Shown here: piece after piece, positions 2-6,514 of the stretch | How positions within the stretch are numbered: position 1 is the first letter of the stretch | Layout of the letters: each line of letters opens with the position of its first letter | Source: a bacterium | GTDB taxonomy: Bacteria; ARS69 | Length of the DNA stretch: 13,515 bases | NCBI GenBank assembly: GCA_025774865.1 | Contig: JALGZO010000095.1 | Span: 1 to 13,515, forward strand | Direction of reading: 5' to 3' | Program-made: the position numbers and the translations under genes | Notes under the pieces: model-generated | Database searches by the model: none | Told to the model about the DNA's origin: nothing | Seen by the model: the letters and a program-made list of their open reading frames with translations, nothing else

Positions 2-304
2 GGCGTGGTGGCCCTCCTCGAGTCTCCTCGGGCGGTCGGCGAGATCTTCAACCTCGGGAGCAACGAGGAGGTCTCGATCCTCGGTCTCGCCGAGCGCGTC
101 CGCGAAGTCGCCGGCAGCTCTTCGGAGATTCACCTCGTTCCGTATGACGAGGCCTACGAACCGGGGTTCGAAGACATGCCGCGGCGGGTGCCCGATTTGC
201 GCAAGATCAACGAGATCGTCGGCTACGCTCCCAAGCGCACCCTCGACGACATCCTCCATTCGGTCGTCGAGTACCGGCGGGCAATGACCTTCCGGCCGTC
301 GTGA
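2..304 (+). CDS. NAD-dependent epimerase/dehydratase, C-terminal end (partial)
   Basis: This is the last 100 or so residues of an extended short-chain dehydrogenase/reductase that acts on a nucleotide sugar; the start lies before the window. The stretch GEIFNLGSNEEVSI is the usual segment after the substrate pocket, where the family has 'fNlGs' followed by a 'sI.eLA..i' helix. Further on, FEDMPRRVPDLRKI and the closing helix TLDDILHSVVEYRR match the conserved end of UDP-glucose 4-epimerase, UDP-glucuronate decarboxylase and dTDP-glucose dehydratase relatives. The Rossmann nucleotide-binding part and the catalytic YxxxK are outside the window, so the exact reaction cannot be assigned. The polyprenyl-phosphate sugar transferase two genes downstream supports a role in making sugars for a surface polysaccharide. 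The end at TGA 302-304 is clear. Confidence 0.85.
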   Translation, partial: GVVALLESPRAVGEIFNLGSNEEVSILGLAERVREVAGSSSEIHLVPYDEAYEPGFEDMPRRVPDLRKINEIVGYAPKRTLDDILHSVVEYRRAMTFRPS

Positions 305-410: not shown

Positions 411-415
411 ACTCC

Positions 416-1516
416 ATGTCCGAGAAGAGCCCGCGAGTACTGCTGATCGACGACGACCTCGTCGACTGCGAGGTCGCGCGACGCCTGCTGCGAGGCGGCT
501 ACCTGTTGTCGGAGACGCCGACCGGCATTCAGGGCGTCGAAGCGGTGAGCTCCACTCGGCCGGATTGCGTCCTTCTGTCCACACGATTGCCCGACACCGA
601 TGCCCTCGAGGTCCTCGACCAGATCGTGAGACAGAGTCGAGTCGTTCCCGTCGTCCTGATGGCAGAGGCGGGCGACGAGGAGATCGCCGAGCGTGGCATG
701 GCCGGCGGAGCGTCCGGATTCGTGTCGAAGGTGTCTTTGACGGTCCACAATCTACGTGCCGCGATCGAGCTCGCGCTTCGCGCCGCATCGCTGCAGCGGG
801 ACCTGGAGAACGCGCGCCGGGAACTCGGCCTGATCACCGGGAACCTCACGAAGGAGCTCCGAAGTTCGCTGCAACACATCGCCGAGTCGAGTCACGAGCT
901 GCGGACGCGGCTCGCCTCGCATCTCGACGATCGGTCGGCGGCCGACCTCGCCTTCATCCAGGAGCGCGCACTCGAAATGTCGGCGGGGATGGACGATCTC
1001 GTCGAGTACACCTTGGTCGGGACGGCCGTCTCCTCGGCGGGATGGGTGGATCTGAACGAGGTCATTCGCCAGGTGCTCGACAAGCTGGACGAAGCCGTTC
1101 GCCAGACGAGCGCGTGCATCGAAGTCGAGCCGCTTCCGATGGTGTGGGGCGACACGCCTTCGCTCATCCGCCTCCTGATGAATCTGCTCTCGAACTCGAT
1201 CAAGTTTCACGGTCACGGAAGCCCCGTCGTCCGCGTGAGCTCGCACCTCAAGGACGGCGAATGGGAGATCTCGATCCAGGACAATGGAATCGGGATCGAC
1301 CCTGGCCGACAATCGACGATCTTCCGGCCGCTCGATCCGATCGACGCCGGGCCCTCGTCCGACGGTCGAGGGCTCGGGCTGGCGACCTCTGCCCGCATCG
1401 TCGAGCAGCACGGGGGGCGGATTCGCGTGTTCTCGAATCCTGGGGCTGGCAGTATCTTCCGCTTCACCCTGCGGACGCCCCCGGAGGGGCTCCGGGCGGC
1501 GTCGGACCGTCGTTGA
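416..1516 (+). CDS. Receiver-histidine kinase fusion lacking both phospho-acceptor residues (likely pseudo-signalling protein)
   Basis: This 366-residue soluble protein has an N-terminal receiver domain (about 6-122), a coiled linker (123-140), a HisKA-like helical pair (141-202) and an ATP-binding domain (211-360). The ATP-binding boxes look intact: N box NLLSNSIKF (256-264), DNGIGID (289-295) and GRGLGLA (317-323). The receiver keeps the acidic pocket D12-D14 and Lys105, but Ser55 stands where the phosphorylated Asp belongs (VLLSTRLPD) and Ala83 replaces the switch Thr/Ser. In the helical pair, TKELRSSL (145-152) aligns with the usual SHDLxxPL box, so the phospho-His is Lys146. Its distance to EYT (197-199) is the normal family spacing. 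ATG 416 was chosen because receivers usually start a few residues before the first strand; TTG 371 would add 15 residues. It lies between glycan genes. The next gene overlaps its stop as TTGA. I infer an ATP-binding regulator that works without phosphotransfer. Confidence 0.8.
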   Translation: MSEKSPRVLLIDDDLVDCEVARRLLRGGYLLSETPTGIQGVEAVSSTRPDCVLLSTRLPDTDALEVLDQIVRQSRVVPVVLMAEAGDEEIAERGMAGGASGFVSKVSLTVHNLRAAIELALRAASLQRDLENARRELGLITGNLTKELRSSLQHIAESSHELRTRLASHLDDRSAADLAFIQERALEMSAGMDDLVEYTLVGTAVSSAGWVDLNEVIRQVLDKLDEAVRQTSACIEVEPLPMVWGDTPSLIRLLMNLLSNSIKFHGHGSPVVRVSSHLKDGEWEISIQDNGIGIDPGRQSTIFRPLDPIDAGPSSDGRGLGLATSARIVEQHGGRIRVFSNPGAGSIFRFTLRTPPEGLRAASDRR

Positions 1517-2622
1517 CGGCCCTCAGGGGTCAGCGTAGGCTCCGCAACGGCCAGAAACGCGCCCGAGCCAGGGGGGCCACCCTGCCCGTCGTCCTCATCA
1601 CGTTCCTGACCGCACTCGCCGGGGCAGTCGCCCTCACGCCCGTCTGTCGGAGGATCGCTCTGCGGATGGGATTCCTGGCCCACCCCTCCTCTCGAGGTGT
1701 CCACCGGGAACCGACGCCCCTCCTCGGAGGCGTCGCGATCTTTGCGGCGTTCGCTCTGGCTCTCGCGGTGGGAGCGCTGGTGAGCCGCGTCGGCGCCGTC
1801 ACCCCGACCCTCGGCTTTCTCGCCGGCGGGACCCTGATCTTCGTGATGGGCATCATCGACGATAAGCACGACCTGAGCTGGTTCTCCAAGCTCCTCGGTC
1901 AAATCATCGCCGCGGTACTCCTGCTGGCGAGCGGGAACACCGGCGGGGTGTTCTTCTTCTCTCCGCTGGGCCTCGTGCTGTCACTCGTGTGGGTGGTCGG
2001 ACTCACCAACGCGATGAACTTCTTGGACAACATGGACGGCGTCTGCGCCGGGATCACGGCGGTGGTCGCGCTGACGTTCGTGGGGCTGGGGCTGCTCTCG
2101 GGGGACACCGCGATGGCGGTGATCGCGGCGGCGCTGTGCGGAGCGTCGTTCGGTTTCCTTCGCTTCAACTTCCACCCCGCGCGCATCTTCCTCGGCGACG
2201 GTGGGAGCCTCTTCCTCGGCTACTCGCTCGGGTCTCTCGGCCTGAAGAGCATCGGCCACTCGGATCTCTCGCTGTCGTTGCTCGTGCCGGTAGTAGCGCT
2301 CGCGTACCCGATCTTCGACATCACGTTCGTCAGCGTGACGCGCTCCGCTCGCGGGCAGAGTCTGACGCAGGGTGGCAAGGATCACACGAGCCACCGCCTC
2401 GCCCGGATCAAGCACGGCACGCGCCTCACCGCCGTCGCCATCTACGGAATCTGCGCCGCTCTCGGCGTGATCGCCCTCGTGCTCCAGCGACTCTCGTTCG
2501 CGCCCGCCACGGTCGTGGGGTTCCTGGTCGTCGTGTTCGGACTATTCGCATTCGGAATCCGGCTTGCGCGCCTCGCGCCGGTGCCGGAGTCAGTGCCACC
2601 CCCGCGCGCCGCGGTGGGTTGA
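1513..2622 (+). CDS. Polyprenyl-phosphate sugar-1-phosphate transferase (WecA/MraY/TagO family)
   Basis: This is a multi-spanning inner-membrane enzyme of glycosyltransferase family 4. The family moves a sugar-1-phosphate (often GlcNAc-1-P) from a UDP-sugar to undecaprenyl phosphate, the first step of O-antigen, capsule or similar glycan assembly. With the start used here it has 369 residues and about ten hydrophobic segments. The cytoplasmic motifs are present: EPTPLLGG early in the chain, Asp116-Asp117 in GIIDDKHDLSW, NFLDNMDG with Asp172 and Asp175, FLGDGGSLFLG with Asp229, and the His-rich loop GGKDHTSHRL (His291, His294). It lacks a MraY-like context of cell-wall genes, so a WecA/TagO-like role is more likely. 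The start is uncertain: TTG 1513 overlaps the previous stop (TTGA) and gives a strongly basic N-terminus, while CTG 1582 would begin right at the first membrane helix. The acceptor sugar cannot be read from the sequence. Confidence 0.88.
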   Translation: MTALRGQRRLRNGQKRARARGATLPVVLITFLTALAGAVALTPVCRRIALRMGFLAHPSSRGVHREPTPLLGGVAIFAAFALALAVGALVSRVGAVTPTLGFLAGGTLIFVMGIIDDKHDLSWFSKLLGQIIAAVLLLASGNTGGVFFFSPLGLVLSLVWVVGLTNAMNFLDNMDGVCAGITAVVALTFVGLGLLSGDTAMAVIAAALCGASFGFLRFNFHPARIFLGDGGSLFLGYSLGSLGLKSIGHSDLSLSLLVPVVALAYPIFDITFVSVTRSARGQSLTQGGKDHTSHRLARIKHGTRLTAVAIYGICAALGVIALVLQRLSFAPATVVGFLVVVFGLFAFGIRLARLAPVPESVPPPRAAVG

Positions 2623-2648
2623 CCACCGCCCGGACTTCGCCGGATACT
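2619..2648 (+). promoter_or_regulatory. Possible sigma-70-type promoter for the HemC-like gene
   Basis: TTGACC (2619-2624) overlaps the stop codon of the upstream transferase gene. It is followed after 18 bases by GATACT (2643-2648). This is a 5/6 match to the -35 consensus and a 4/6 match to the -10 consensus. It sits about 50 bases before the TTG start at 2697, within the 74-base gap 2623-2696. Promoter consensus in this phylum may differ, so this is tentative. Confidence 0.35.
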
Positions 2649-2684: not shown

Positions 2685-2690
2685 AGGAGG
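2685..2690 (+). promoter_or_regulatory. Ribosome binding site that sets a TTG start
   Basis: AGGAGG lies six bases before TTG 2697, the best Shine-Dalgarno match in the window. It supports the TTG start, which places the first conserved strand (LRVGCRGT) at residues 7-14. The nearby ATG at 2701 is in another frame and soon meets a stop. Confidence 0.75.
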
Positions 2691-2696
2691 GAAGTC

Positions 2697-3575
2697 TTGA
2701 ATGAGGATCGCCCGCTTCGGGTGGGATGCCGGGGTACCGAATTCTGCAAAGCCCAGACGTCCACGGTCCTGAAGCGGCTCAACGAGAAGCGCCCCGGAGC
2801 GGAGTTCGAGATCGTGGAAGTTCCGGGGAATGGAGACCAGAGCCCCATTCTGGACGCTCTGGGTGCCGGCGTCGTCGACCTCCACGTGCGGGGCATGCGC
2901 GAGGTTCCGCTCGAGTTGCCCGATGACGTCCACATCGCCGCCTGCACCGAGCGGATCGATCCCTTCGACGTCCTCATCGCGGAGGACGGTGTTCTTCTCG
3001 AGGACCTGCCCGACGGCGCGAAGCTCGGAGTGGAGTCGGCCCGGGTGTCGGTCCAGATCGGCTCGTTCCGCGAGGAACTCGCGATCGAGAAGATGGAAGG
3101 AACCATTGATCGTTTCCTCCAGTATCTGAATGCAGGGAAGGTTGCCGCCTTCATCGTCGCGGCCGAGGACGTCGAGACCATGGGTTGGGAGGACGCGGTC
3201 TCCGAGGTCTTTCCCCCGGATATTCTGCTGCCGGCGGCAGGGCAAGGGAGCTTCGGTCTCCTCACGCGGAAGGACGACGACACCACCACGGAGCTCGCGA
3301 TGGAGATCGACCACCAAATCTCACGGCAGGTAGTGAGAGCGGAGCGAGCGTTCCTGCGCGAGCTGAACGTGAAACTCACGGATCCGGTCGCGGTTCACGG
3401 AAGCTTCGAGGCCGACACGCTCGTCTTGGAGGCCTTGCTGGGCGACGAAGTCTCCGGAGCGATTCTTCGCGACGACCTCGACGGAGATCCTGCGGAGGAA
3501 CACGACCTCGGCATCCGGCTCGCGAAGTTGTTCGTGGCCGACGGGGCACGGGACTACCTGGCCAGCTACGACTGA
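2697..3575 (+). CDS. Hydroxymethylbilane synthase (HemC)-like protein lacking catalytic residues
   Basis: The 292 residues align end to end with porphobilinogen deaminase, the tetrapyrrole enzyme that polymerises four porphobilinogens on a dipyrromethane cofactor. Recognisable parts are RVGCRGTEFCKAQ (8-20), VPLELP (70-75), ERIDPFD (85-91), LPAAGQGSFG (178-187) and AERAFLRELN (215-224). Compared by eye with E. coli HemC (residues from memory), the cofactor Cys242 is Leu227, Asp84 is Glu69, Lys83 is Arg68, Arg132 is Val117, Arg149 is Glu134, Arg155 is Phe140 and Arg176 is Thr161. Only Arg11 (Arg12) and Arg131 (Arg116) appear kept. The flexible lid loop after the early Gly-Asp pair (46-47) is shortened by about 14 residues. 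No other haem gene is nearby. It has its own ribosome binding site, possible promoter and terminator-like hairpin. The reading frame is intact, so it is probably a repurposed fold, perhaps for ligand binding. Automatic annotation would probably call it hemC; that activity is unlikely. Confidence 0.8.
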   Translation: MNEDRPLRVGCRGTEFCKAQTSTVLKRLNEKRPGAEFEIVEVPGNGDQSPILDALGAGVVDLHVRGMREVPLELPDDVHIAACTERIDPFDVLIAEDGVLLEDLPDGAKLGVESARVSVQIGSFREELAIEKMEGTIDRFLQYLNAGKVAAFIVAAEDVETMGWEDAVSEVFPPDILLPAAGQGSFGLLTRKDDDTTTELAMEIDHQISRQVVRAERAFLRELNVKLTDPVAVHGSFEADTLVLEALLGDEVSGAILRDDLDGDPAEEHDLGIRLAKLFVADGARDYLASYD

Positions 3576-3610
3576 GGGGATCCTGTCACCGGATCCTCTT
3601 GGTCTTCTTT
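3575..3610 (+). terminator. Probable intrinsic terminator after the HemC-like gene
   Basis: AGGGGATCC (3575-3583) pairs with GGATCCTCT (3591-3599) across the seven-base loop TGTCACC. This gives about nine pairs, two of them G-T. The T-rich run TCTTCTTT follows at 3603-3610. It begins on the stop codon of the HemC-like gene and ends before the kinase gene, in a 72-base gap. The T tract is interrupted, so read-through is possible. Confidence 0.5.
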
Positions 3611-3647: not shown

Positions 3648-4907
3648 ATGGCGGGACTGCGCGTCTCCATGTCTCCGGTCTTCATCCGGAACTTTCTCTT
3701 CCTGGGGATGGTGACGCTCTCCCTCGCGTCGCTGCTCTACACGAGTCGCCTCGCGACGCACCTCGAGCGGCAGACCGCCATCTTCACGGATCTGTTCGCG
3801 CGATTCGCCGCCGCCTCGACCCTTGCCGCGTCCCAGGACGAAGAGGTGCAGCGCATCTTCCGCGGCTTCATGGATCATGTGACGTTTCCGATCATCGTCA
3901 CGGACCGTCGGGGCGTGCCGTGGACCTGCAAGGGCACCGGCATCTCTCCCGATGCGATTCCCTACGACACGTTCGTGTCGACCGATCCCGCGAACCCGCC
4001 GCCCGGTCCGATCGCGGACCTCCTTTACCTGGCCTGGGAGATGGATACCGAGCGCACGCCGATTCCGATGATTCTCCCCGACACGGGCGAGGTTTTCGGC
4101 TACATCCACTACGGCGAGTCTCCCCTCGTCGGTCAGCTTCGGATGATGCCGGTGATCCAGATCGCGATCGCCGGATTGCTCGTCGCGATCGGTTACTTCG
4201 GGGTGCGCACGGTGCGTCAGAGCGAGAAGCGCTCCATCTGGGCGGGGATGGCGAAGGAGACCGCTCACCAGCTCGGTACGCCGATCTCCTCGATGATGGG
4301 CTGGATCGATCTGCTCGAAGCCGAGGCGTCGCCGGACGACGAATCGACGCGGAGCACGCTCCGGGAGATGCGGACGGACGTTGCGCGGCTCAGCCAGGTC
4401 GCGAGCCGATTCGAGCGAGTCGGGTCGATGCCGAAGCTGGAGCTCCTGGACCCGAACCCGATCATCGCCCACGTGGTCGAGTACCTGCGCCGGCGCCTTC
4501 CTTCCGTGGGTCGCCGGGTGGAAATCGTCGAGCAGCTCAACGACGTTCCGAGGATCCGCTCCGACCGAGAGCTCCTCTCCTGGACCGTCGAGAACGTCCT
4601 CAAGAACGCCGCCGACGCCATTCTGAAGGACGGCGCCGACGGGACGATCATCATCCGGACCGATCCCGGCGTCCCCGACGGAGTCCGGATTCTCGTGGAG
4701 GACAACGGTCCGGGCATTCCCGAATCGATCCAGAGCCGTATCTTCGATCCGGGGTTCACGACGAAGCCGCGCGGCTGGGGCCTGGGGCTCGCGCTGGCGA
4801 AGCGAATCATCGAGGAATACCATGGCGGACGGATCCGCTTGTTGCGGAGCGCACCGAACGTGCGTACCGTGTTCGTCCTGGATATCCCGGAGGGCAAGCG
4901 CCGCTGA
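3648..4907 (+). CDS. Membrane sensor histidine kinase, PorY-like
   Basis: This 419-residue kinase is anchored by two membrane segments (about 12-31 and 168-186) that flank a sensor region of roughly 135 residues outside the membrane. The sensor contains FPIIVTDRRGVPW (80-92) and FGYIHYGES (150-158), which suggests a PAS-like fold. The dimerisation box is WAGMAKETAHQLGTPISSM with phospho-acceptor His207. The ATP-binding domain has the N box NVLKNAADAI, then EDNGPGIP, and GWGLGLA after FTTKPR. All parts look functional, unlike the protein at 416-1516. The sequence around the second membrane segment and His box resembles a kinase family common in Bacteroidota, which I associate with PorY; that link is from memory. 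ATG 3648 has GGGGA at 3638-3642. The PorX-like regulator starts 35 bases downstream, so the two are probably a cognate pair. The signal sensed is unknown. Confidence 0.9.
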   Translation: MAGLRVSMSPVFIRNFLFLGMVTLSLASLLYTSRLATHLERQTAIFTDLFARFAAASTLAASQDEEVQRIFRGFMDHVTFPIIVTDRRGVPWTCKGTGISPDAIPYDTFVSTDPANPPPGPIADLLYLAWEMDTERTPIPMILPDTGEVFGYIHYGESPLVGQLRMMPVIQIAIAGLLVAIGYFGVRTVRQSEKRSIWAGMAKETAHQLGTPISSMMGWIDLLEAEASPDDESTRSTLREMRTDVARLSQVASRFERVGSMPKLELLDPNPIIAHVVEYLRRRLPSVGRRVEIVEQLNDVPRIRSDRELLSWTVENVLKNAADAILKDGADGTIIIRTDPGVPDGVRILVEDNGPGIPESIQSRIFDPGFTTKPRGWGLGLALAKRIIEEYHGGRIRLLRSAPNVRTVFVLDIPEGKRR

Positions 4908-4942: not shown

Positions 4943-6514
4943 ATGGCCGAGGAACGTAAGAGAATCCTTTGGGCGGACGACGAGATGGACCACCTGCGTC
5001 CGCACGTGAAGTTCCTGGAGGATCGGGGTTTCTCGGTGTCCAAGGTGACGAACGGCGAGGATGCCATCGCCCTCACGTCGGACCCCGAGGGCCGCTTCGA
5101 TCTCGTCATCCTGGACGAGATGATGCCCGGCATCGGCGGACTCGAAACCTTGAAGGGGATCAAGGAGCGGGATCCGTACGTGCCCGTCATCATGGTGACG
5201 AAGTCCGAGGAAGAGACTCTCATCGACGCCGCAATCCGCGAGAACATCGACAACTTCCTCGTGAAGCCGGTGAACCCACTCCAGGTGTACACGGCCGCGA
5301 AGCGGCTCCTCGACGGTGACCGAATCCGGGAGTCGGGGGCCATGCGTGACTACGTGGACGACTTCACCGTCCTGCGTAACCTGCGAACCGACACCGCCAC
5401 TCCGGACACCTGGATCGACGTGTATCGAAAGCTCGTGGAGTGGGATCTTCGCCTCGACGATCACCGTGACGCCGGGCTGCTCCAGACCCATGAGGACGCG
5501 AAACTCGAGACCAACATCGAGTTCTGCCGCTTCGTCTCGGAGAACTACCGCGATTGGGTGTCCGGGGCCGAGGGTCGCCCCACCCTTTCGGTGGACATCG
5601 TCCAGAAGTATGTAGCGCCGCTCCTCGCCGAGAAGCGCAAGGTGTACTTCATCATCATCGATTGCCTGCGGCTCGATCAGTGGATCGCGATCGAGGCGCT
5701 CCTGGAACCCTACTTCGACATCCGGCGAGATCACTACTATTCGATCCTCCCCACGGCCACTTCCTTCGCGCGCAACTCGATCTTCTCCGGCCTCTTTCCG
5801 CTCCAGATCTCCCAGCAGCATCCGGAGTACTGGAGCATGCCGGGGGACGACGATTCGAGCTTGAACCGGTACGAGCGGCAGCTTCTTGACGAGCAGCTCG
5901 ACCGGATCGGCGTGAAGCTCAATCCGAGCACCAAGTACATCAAGGTGTTCAACCAGGAAGAGGCCTCCACGGTGAAGAAGGACATCGCGAGCCTGTACTC
6001 GTTGCCGCTCGTCGCGATGGTCTTCAACTTCGTCGACATCCTGTCGCACGGGCGCAGCGAGTCCGCAATCCTCCAGGAGATCGCGCCGGATGAGGCCGCG
6101 TTCCGCGCGCTGACCACCGCATGGTTCAAGCACTCGTCGCTCTTCGACATCCTGAAGGCGATTTCTCGCCAGGACGCGACGGTGGTGCTCTCCACGGATC
6201 ACGGTTCGGTGCTGAGTCGCCGCTCGACGATCGCGTACGGAAACCGCGACACGTCCACGAACCTGCGTTTCAAGATCGGGACGAATCTGGGCTGCGACGA
6301 GAAGAACGCGCTGCACCTCAAGAGCCCGGAGGACTTTCAGCTGCCGACAAATGGACTCAACACGCACTACATCTTGGCGAGGGAGAACTACTACTTCGTC
6401 TACCCCACGAAGTTCCACGAGTACGAGCGGCAATACCGCGGCAGCTTTCAGCACGGCGGCATCTCGATGGAGGAGATGCTCCTCCCGTGCATCGTGATGA
6501 ATCCTCGGCGATGA
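4943..6514 (+). CDS. porX: PorX-like response regulator with PglZ/alkaline-phosphatase-fold effector domain
   Basis: The 523 residues carry a CheY-like receiver (about 6-120), a helical middle (about 125-230) and a PglZ-type alkaline phosphatase superfamily domain (about 235-520). The receiver is complete: Asp12-Asp13, phospho-Asp58 (VILDEMMPG), the switch Thr in IMVTKS and the Lys in FLVKPVNP. In the effector, Asp240 (IIIDCLRLDQW), Thr271 (LPTATSFARN, the nucleophile position), Asp365-x3-His369 (DILSH), Asp419-His420 (STDHGS) and His504 (FQHGG) look like the metal site. The length matches PorX, which in Porphyromonas controls type IX secretion genes and has been reported to act as a zinc-dependent phosphodiesterase. 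It has no DNA-binding helix-turn-helix. AGGAG at 4935-4939 is only three bases from ATG 4943. Its stop overlaps tsaE as ATGA. Whether this organism has type IX secretion cannot be judged here. Confidence 0.92.
   Translation: MAEERKRILWADDEMDHLRPHVKFLEDRGFSVSKVTNGEDAIALTSDPEGRFDLVILDEMMPGIGGLETLKGIKERDPYVPVIMVTKSEEETLIDAAIRENIDNFLVKPVNPLQVYTAAKRLLDGDRIRESGAMRDYVDDFTVLRNLRTDTATPDTWIDVYRKLVEWDLRLDDHRDAGLLQTHEDAKLETNIEFCRFVSENYRDWVSGAEGRPTLSVDIVQKYVAPLLAEKRKVYFIIIDCLRLDQWIAIEALLEPYFDIRRDHYYSILPTATSFARNSIFSGLFPLQISQQHPEYWSMPGDDDSSLNRYERQLLDEQLDRIGVKLNPSTKYIKVFNQEEASTVKKDIASLYSLPLVAMVFNFVDILSHGRSESAILQEIAPDEAAFRALTTAWFKHSSLFDILKAISRQDATVVLSTDHGSVLSRRSTIAYGNRDTSTNLRFKIGTNLGCDEKNALHLKSPEDFQLPTNGLNTHYILARENYYFVYPTKFHEYERQYRGSFQHGGISMEEMLLPCIVMNPRR

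Follow-up and report, generated by a model that had tools for sequence, protein, structure and literature searches.

Clade of hydroxymethylbilane synthase homologues without the cofactor cysteine, under purifying selection and encoded near envelope-glycan and porY-porX genes in two bacterial phyla

The window analysed here is a stretch of 13,515 nucleotides that forms contig C96 of a 4.7-Mb draft genome, and the features described below all lie on its forward (+) strand. It opens inside a probable sugar-nucleotide epimerase/dehydratase gene, of which the contig end leaves only the 3' part (2..304); this fragment has no Pfam match, but an epimerase/dehydratase is conserved 5' of wecA in relatives from the same family of genomes (f1; the codes f1, f26, and f57 to f63 denote families of the genome set, most of whose members are drafts). 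A regulator with receiver and HATPase domain matches (413..1516) lies between this partial gene and a wecA-like gene for an undecaprenyl-phosphate sugar-1-phosphate transferase (1564..2622, start approximate; PF00953, 117 bits). We could recognise no HisKA domain in this regulator, which is directly 5' of wecA in the window genome. The gene of interest (2697..3575) encodes a protein of 292 amino acids with the hydroxymethylbilane synthase (HMBS) fold from a TTG start codon, with an AGGAGG ribosome-binding site six bases upstream (2685..2690), and a weak promoter-like match occurs 5' of it (2619..2648; 9/12, with 0.3 expected by chance). It is followed by a terminator-like hairpin (3570..3604), present in this genome, where relatives that were read have shorter gaps, then by a porY-like membrane histidine kinase gene (3648..4907; HisKA and HATPase_c domains, synteny with porX) and by porX itself, encoding a receiver and PglZ response regulator (4943..6514; NF052313 T9SS_RR_PorX, 637 bits against a cut-off of 300). 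We use the name HemC-L for Cys-less relatives of HemC, the window protein included.

HMBS, or porphobilinogen deaminase (HemC; PF01379 and PF03900, TIGR00212), is among the most conserved metabolic enzymes and relies on a single cofactor Cys and a single catalytic Asp. The window protein is a full-length homologue (PF01379, 115 bits; PF03900, 29 bits) that shares the three-domain fold, the LPAxGQG motif, and the structural glycines and prolines of the enzyme, and it narrowly misses the cut-off of the HemC equivalog model TIGR00212 (163.2 against 164 bits). Some HemC-L proteins surpass that cut-off, such as L172 (6900-7853; 165.8 bits) and L179 (6487-7398; 170.3 bits), and scores at or near it create an annotation trap through which genomes that make no haem would be labelled as encoding hydroxymethylbilane synthase. 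The AlphaFold2 model of the window protein is confident (pLDDT 94.7, pTM 0.92) and, among solved structures, most resembles HMBS enzymes (TM 0.92-0.95 by Foldseek/VIA-align); against E. coli HMBS, it gives a Z of 38.9 and an rmsd of 1.5 A over 289 residues at 30% identity. A divergent f60 member whose genome lacks hemB is likewise predicted to fold as HMBS (pLDDT 92.1, with TM, by target length, reaching 0.9). A preliminary description of this DNA, made by eye, had proposed a full-length porphobilinogen deaminase fold with an open frame, a strong AGGAGG site, and an intact LPAAGQG motif, and each of these features is present.

That description also held that the catalytic site had been erased. 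We aligned the window protein with E. coli HemC (NC_000913), with three canonical HemCs from the window's own phylum, and with 25 from other families, and found every substitution it named: in E. coli numbering, the cofactor Cys242 is Leu227 in the window (codon CTC, 3375..3377), the catalytic Asp84 is Glu69 (codon GAG, 2901..2903), and R132, R149, R155, and R176 are V117, E134, F140, and T161. The roles of Cys242, Asp84, Arg149, and Arg155 in HMBS have been reviewed (PMC8561815). The lid-loop region carrying Lys55 and Lys59 is deleted, as had been noted, and the alignment adds the replacement of K83 by R and of H80/S81 by R/G. R11 (R12 in the window), Q19 (Q20), and R131 (R116) are retained, so that from the Arg/Lys set of R11, K55, K59, K83, R131, R132, R149, R155, and R176 the window keeps only R11 and R131. 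A better alignment might have placed a Cys and the Arg/Asp set back in the active site, but the set is still absent in ours.

The losses extend well beyond the window. Cys242 is kept in none of 45 Cys-less sequences and in 100% of 39 canonical HemCs, and retention in the Cys-less set is also low for N151 (2%), T127 (4%), K83 (7%), R155 (9%), and R132 (18%), each of which is at 100% in the canonical proteins; in f60 and f61, the most divergent subfamilies, the residue alignment is uncertain in the N-terminal and lid region. Position 84 is Glu (Glu69) in all five f1 orthologues, and across the Cys-less clade it is D, E, or another residue (D, E, Y, H, or L by subfamily), while position 242 is Q, G, P, W, E, L, or M. 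New acidic residues have become conserved across the HemC-L family at E. coli positions 175 and 185. We also compared net charge over 25 columns that we take, given what is generally known of E. coli HMBS, to form the cofactor and substrate site. The mean is +6.9 in canonical HemCs and -3.1 to +2.5 across the Cys-less families, with +8 in E. coli and -1 in the window, and none of 2000 random column sets was as extreme. With this fall in charge the cleft no longer suits a polycarboxylate bilane, and with about eight positive charges lost, tetrapyrrole binding in the old cleft would be less likely.

Within the window's phylum, a HemC-L orthologue with 57-67% identity was found in all five species examined, which represent five genera (f1), and the pattern of active-site changes is common to them; in one (G001) the stretch at the Cys position reads N. 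The preliminary description had asked whether a second, canonical hemC exists in the window genome, and one does: it lies on contig C625 beside hemA-like and hemD-like frames (TIGR00212, 309 bits), and hemB is present as well. A canonical, Cys-containing hemC occurs in the three most complete of the five f1 genomes. Pairwise dN/dS among the f1 orthologues is 0.20-0.38, with dS high and partly saturated, and across the HemC-L comparisons dN/dS spans 0.07-0.38, showing that HemC-L is under purifying selection. Loss of an active site is the expected first step in the decay of a gene, and we therefore considered a decaying pseudogene or an alignment artefact. However, the frame is open in all genomes, synteny is conserved across genera, and the predicted fold is confident, and together with dN/dS these points lead us to reject decay, as the earlier description had done, and to regard this explanation as almost inconceivable.

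Among named genomes, HemC-L had only two matches, Gemmatimonadota bacterium DHS20C21 and bacterium M3-44_Bin_119. We rejected a restriction to the window's phylum, as a genome of another phylum (G029) carries two HemCs, one of them without the Cys. A profile search of 80 genomes of this second phylum, followed by reading of the matches, found Cys-less relatives in 68 of them (families f26, f58, f59, f60, f61, f62, and f63), so the family is far wider than the window suggested, and the active-site loss recurs in approximately 40 relatives more distant than f1. Canonical Cys-containing copies coexist with HemC-L in f26, f59, and f63, and f57 has canonical copies only; some of these class assignments, chiefly those of the second f26 copies, were made by score and not from a read sequence. 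In a quick tree, a single branch separated the 45 Cys-less from the 39 canonical sequences (SH-aLRT 99), and a more careful maximum-likelihood tree (LG+C20 mixture) of 33 Cys-less and 27 canonical sequences again placed all Cys-less proteins on one side of one branch (bootstrap 100/SH-aLRT 99), the split appearing in all bootstrap trees; branches are long, and neither the root nor the early branching within the Cys-less set is certain. The separate clade anticipated in the preliminary description is thus recovered, and as reconstructed from these alignments, the sampled Cys-less clade has one old origin. Repeated independent loss within the f1, f26, and f58 to f63 sample is unsupported. Our literature search on Cys-less or HemC-like proteins found no description of this family.

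The distribution of HemC-L also separates it from haem synthesis. Scoring hemB by PF00490 over 85 genomes, we found that canonical hemC is present or absent together with hemB in 83; the other two are drafts at 65% and 90% completeness. HemC-L, on the other hand, occurs without hemB in 32 genomes, 15 of which (f58, f59, and f60) are at least 90% complete, one being a single contig. No porphobilinogen is made without hemB, and HemC-L therefore cannot be a porphobilinogen deaminase in these carriers; the family is independent of haem synthesis. This bears directly on the possibility that HemC-L is simply a hydroxymethylbilane synthase that attaches its cofactor in an unusual way, for which the members above the TIGR00212 cut-off might speak. 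The window genome has a canonical hemC besides; the Cys, the lid Lys residues, and the greater part of the Arg set have been lost; and relatives persist in genomes without hemB, whose absence refutes a true HMBS for f58 and f60. We reject this explanation and regard it as very improbable overall. HemC-L thus differs from HMBS in lacking the cofactor Cys, the lid loop, most of the Arg/Lys set, and, in the window's clade, the catalytic Asp, as well as in its reversed cleft charge, its separate clade, and its occurrence without the haem pathway.

The prevailing locus can be written as [sugar-nucleotide genes]-wecA-hemCL-(serS)-porY-porX. In f1 the order is wecA-hemCL-porY-porX-tsaE-tsaB, then the same downstream genes as far as the contigs reach; porY is directly 3' of hemC-L in all five genomes, with gaps of 6-7 nt in two relatives and 72 nt in the window, and serS is no longer in the slot between them. 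Families f60, f61, f62, and f63 have wecA-hemCL-serS-porY-porX-tsaE, and 5' of wecA, where read, are genes for UDP-glucose/GDP-mannose dehydrogenase, epimerase/dehydratase, UDP-GlcNAc 2-epimerase, and polysaccharide flippase. Overall, wecA is immediately 5' of hemC-L in f1 and f59 to f63. The preliminary description had noted an adjacent PorY/PorX-like pair and expected relatives to keep the same neighbours. The PorX is genuine and most loci retain this arrangement, but PorY/PorX is not the most persistent link: in f59, hemCL is 3' of wecA with serS-porY-porX elsewhere, and in f26 it is 3' of epimerase, nucleotide-sugar dehydrogenase, and DegT aminotransferase genes, with serS-porY-porX again elsewhere. 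In f58, conversely, hemCL-serS-porY-porX stay together, with neither wecA nor nucleotide-sugar genes seen alongside. The ancestral cluster also contains the housekeeping genes serS, tsaE, tsaB, rimI, accD, and folC, and the linkage of hemC-L may in part be inherited gene order. Four f61 genomes without HemC-L keep porX, so HemC-L is dispensable there. In the two that were read, of genus g82 (L242 and L244, in G093 and G091), wecA abuts serS, a clean loss of hemC-L with wecA, porY, and porX kept. In two single-contig genomes of genus g98, porX appears as two distant pieces (G133:C1 78715-79131 and 675777-677006; G134:C1 819621-820406 and 2113823-2114542), and the canonical hemC matches of G134 are likewise partial and at distant places; these split genes may reflect rearrangement or misassembly.

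The proximity to porY raises the possibility that HemC-L is a cytoplasmic sensor arm of PorY/PorX, perhaps reading haem or tetrapyrrole and linking iron or haem status to secretion control. The position directly 5' of porY throughout f1, with the very short gaps in two genomes, is consistent with such a role, as are reports that hemin elicits a response of P. gingivalis PorX/PorY through an unknown sensor (PMC8050853) and that the activator of PorY is undetermined (PMC7712824). However, hemC-L is not beside porY in f26 or f59, porX carriers lacking HemC-L occur in f57, f61, and other phyla, and an HMM search of loci in other phyla (L084-L094) found no HemC-L beside porX. Since porX is near-universal in the second phylum, co-occurrence of the two is uninformative. 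The loss of the approximately eight positive charges that bind pyrrole carboxylates, together with the persistence of HemC-L in genomes making no tetrapyrrole, argues against a tetrapyrrole ligand; we consider this explanation as a whole unlikely. Although porX and a PorY-like kinase gene lie 3' of hemC-L in most loci, HemC-L is not among the PorXY components in the literature that we found, and in P. gingivalis porX and porY are far apart in the genome (PMC8050853).

We favour the explanation that HemC-L is an HMBS paralogue, ancient and catalytically dead, that has been kept in the cytoplasm either to bind a ligand other than a tetrapyrrole or to serve as a partner protein of the envelope-glycan/PorYX locus, with a probability of roughly 0.6. 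That the protein is dead as an HMBS and repurposed, as proposed in the preliminary description, is well supported by the lost chemistry, the purifying selection, and the carriers without hemB. That it binds something or serves a partner within the locus, and which partner and ligand these are, we infer. The sequence has no evident signal peptide and reads as a stand-alone protein, and the structural matches that follow the HMBS enzymes are venus-flytrap sensor and substrate-binding domains (Z ~10-11), such as the BvgS/EvgS VFT, the LysR effector domain, and the GlnPQ SBD. These share a two-lobed fold of a class that can sense ligands, but they are extracytoplasmic or fused to regulators and are only ~12% identical. 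HemC-L would accordingly be pictured as a cytoplasmic, two-lobed protein of the venus-flytrap type whose former polypyrrole cleft may now hold a less anionic ligand, or none, and whose lobe closure or surface could regulate a partner protein from the same gene cluster. This cluster would make or regulate a surface glycan, given its nucleotide-sugar enzymes, flippase, and WecA, and it holds the PorY/PorX secretion-control pair. As its client, we favour glycan assembly, through WecA or a nucleotide sugar, only moderately over PorY, because the glycan link outlasts the porY link in f59 and f26 and the reverse is seen in f58. Against the favoured explanation stand the possibly inherited gene order, the loss of HemC-L from four f61 genomes, the hairpin between hemC-L and porY in the window, and the persistence of R12, Q20, and R116 in f1.

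Conserved cleft residues of this kind could also belong to a living enzyme with a new reaction, its cleft remodelled for another substrate. In f1 the fold is kept along with strictly conserved R12, Q20 (except where unread), E69, R116, E113, C11, and C17; the family-wide acids at positions 175 and 185 point the same way, and the Glu that replaces Asp84 might serve a different chemistry. The subfamilies nevertheless have no catalytic set in common, and positions 84 and 242 vary, which makes a new enzyme quite improbable in our estimation. Cys11 (2727-2729) and Cys17 (2745-2747) form a CRxxxFC motif near Arg11 that is invariant in f1 and absent from the aligned canonical HemCs, and the pair is a possible metal or redox site. 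A more specific form of the favoured explanation, which we consider unlikely, would make HemC-L a cytoplasmic flytrap sensor that reads a surface-glycan precursor supplied by the cassette 5' of it, either a nucleotide sugar or an undecaprenyl-linked intermediate, and signals to PorY/PorX. If this were true, the two phyla would couple surface polysaccharide production to a type IX-like control of secretion. HemC-L is in any case a new candidate for the control of WecA-type glycan assembly in these phyla and for the activation of PorY, and its selection across a clade as a dead branch of HMBS, even without tetrapyrrole synthesis, indicates a fold freed for another job.

Among 386 further genomes, the best-scoring matches outside the two phyla were canonical, with the exception of L219 of G386. 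This protein (L219/L261, G386:C10:21859-22743), from another phylum, has Asp in place of the Cys and Tyr in place of Asp84, and it has lost the lid; it is 62% identical to a canonical HemC of its own family and grouped with canonical HemCs in the tree, and its genome has a second HemC match. On these grounds, L219 is an independent case of a degenerate HemC. Finally, HemC-L proteins of f26 (L157, L152, and L095) carry an extra acidic C-terminal tail beyond the HMBS core, for example DEDDDGEGAADANLDEFEDLEDL.
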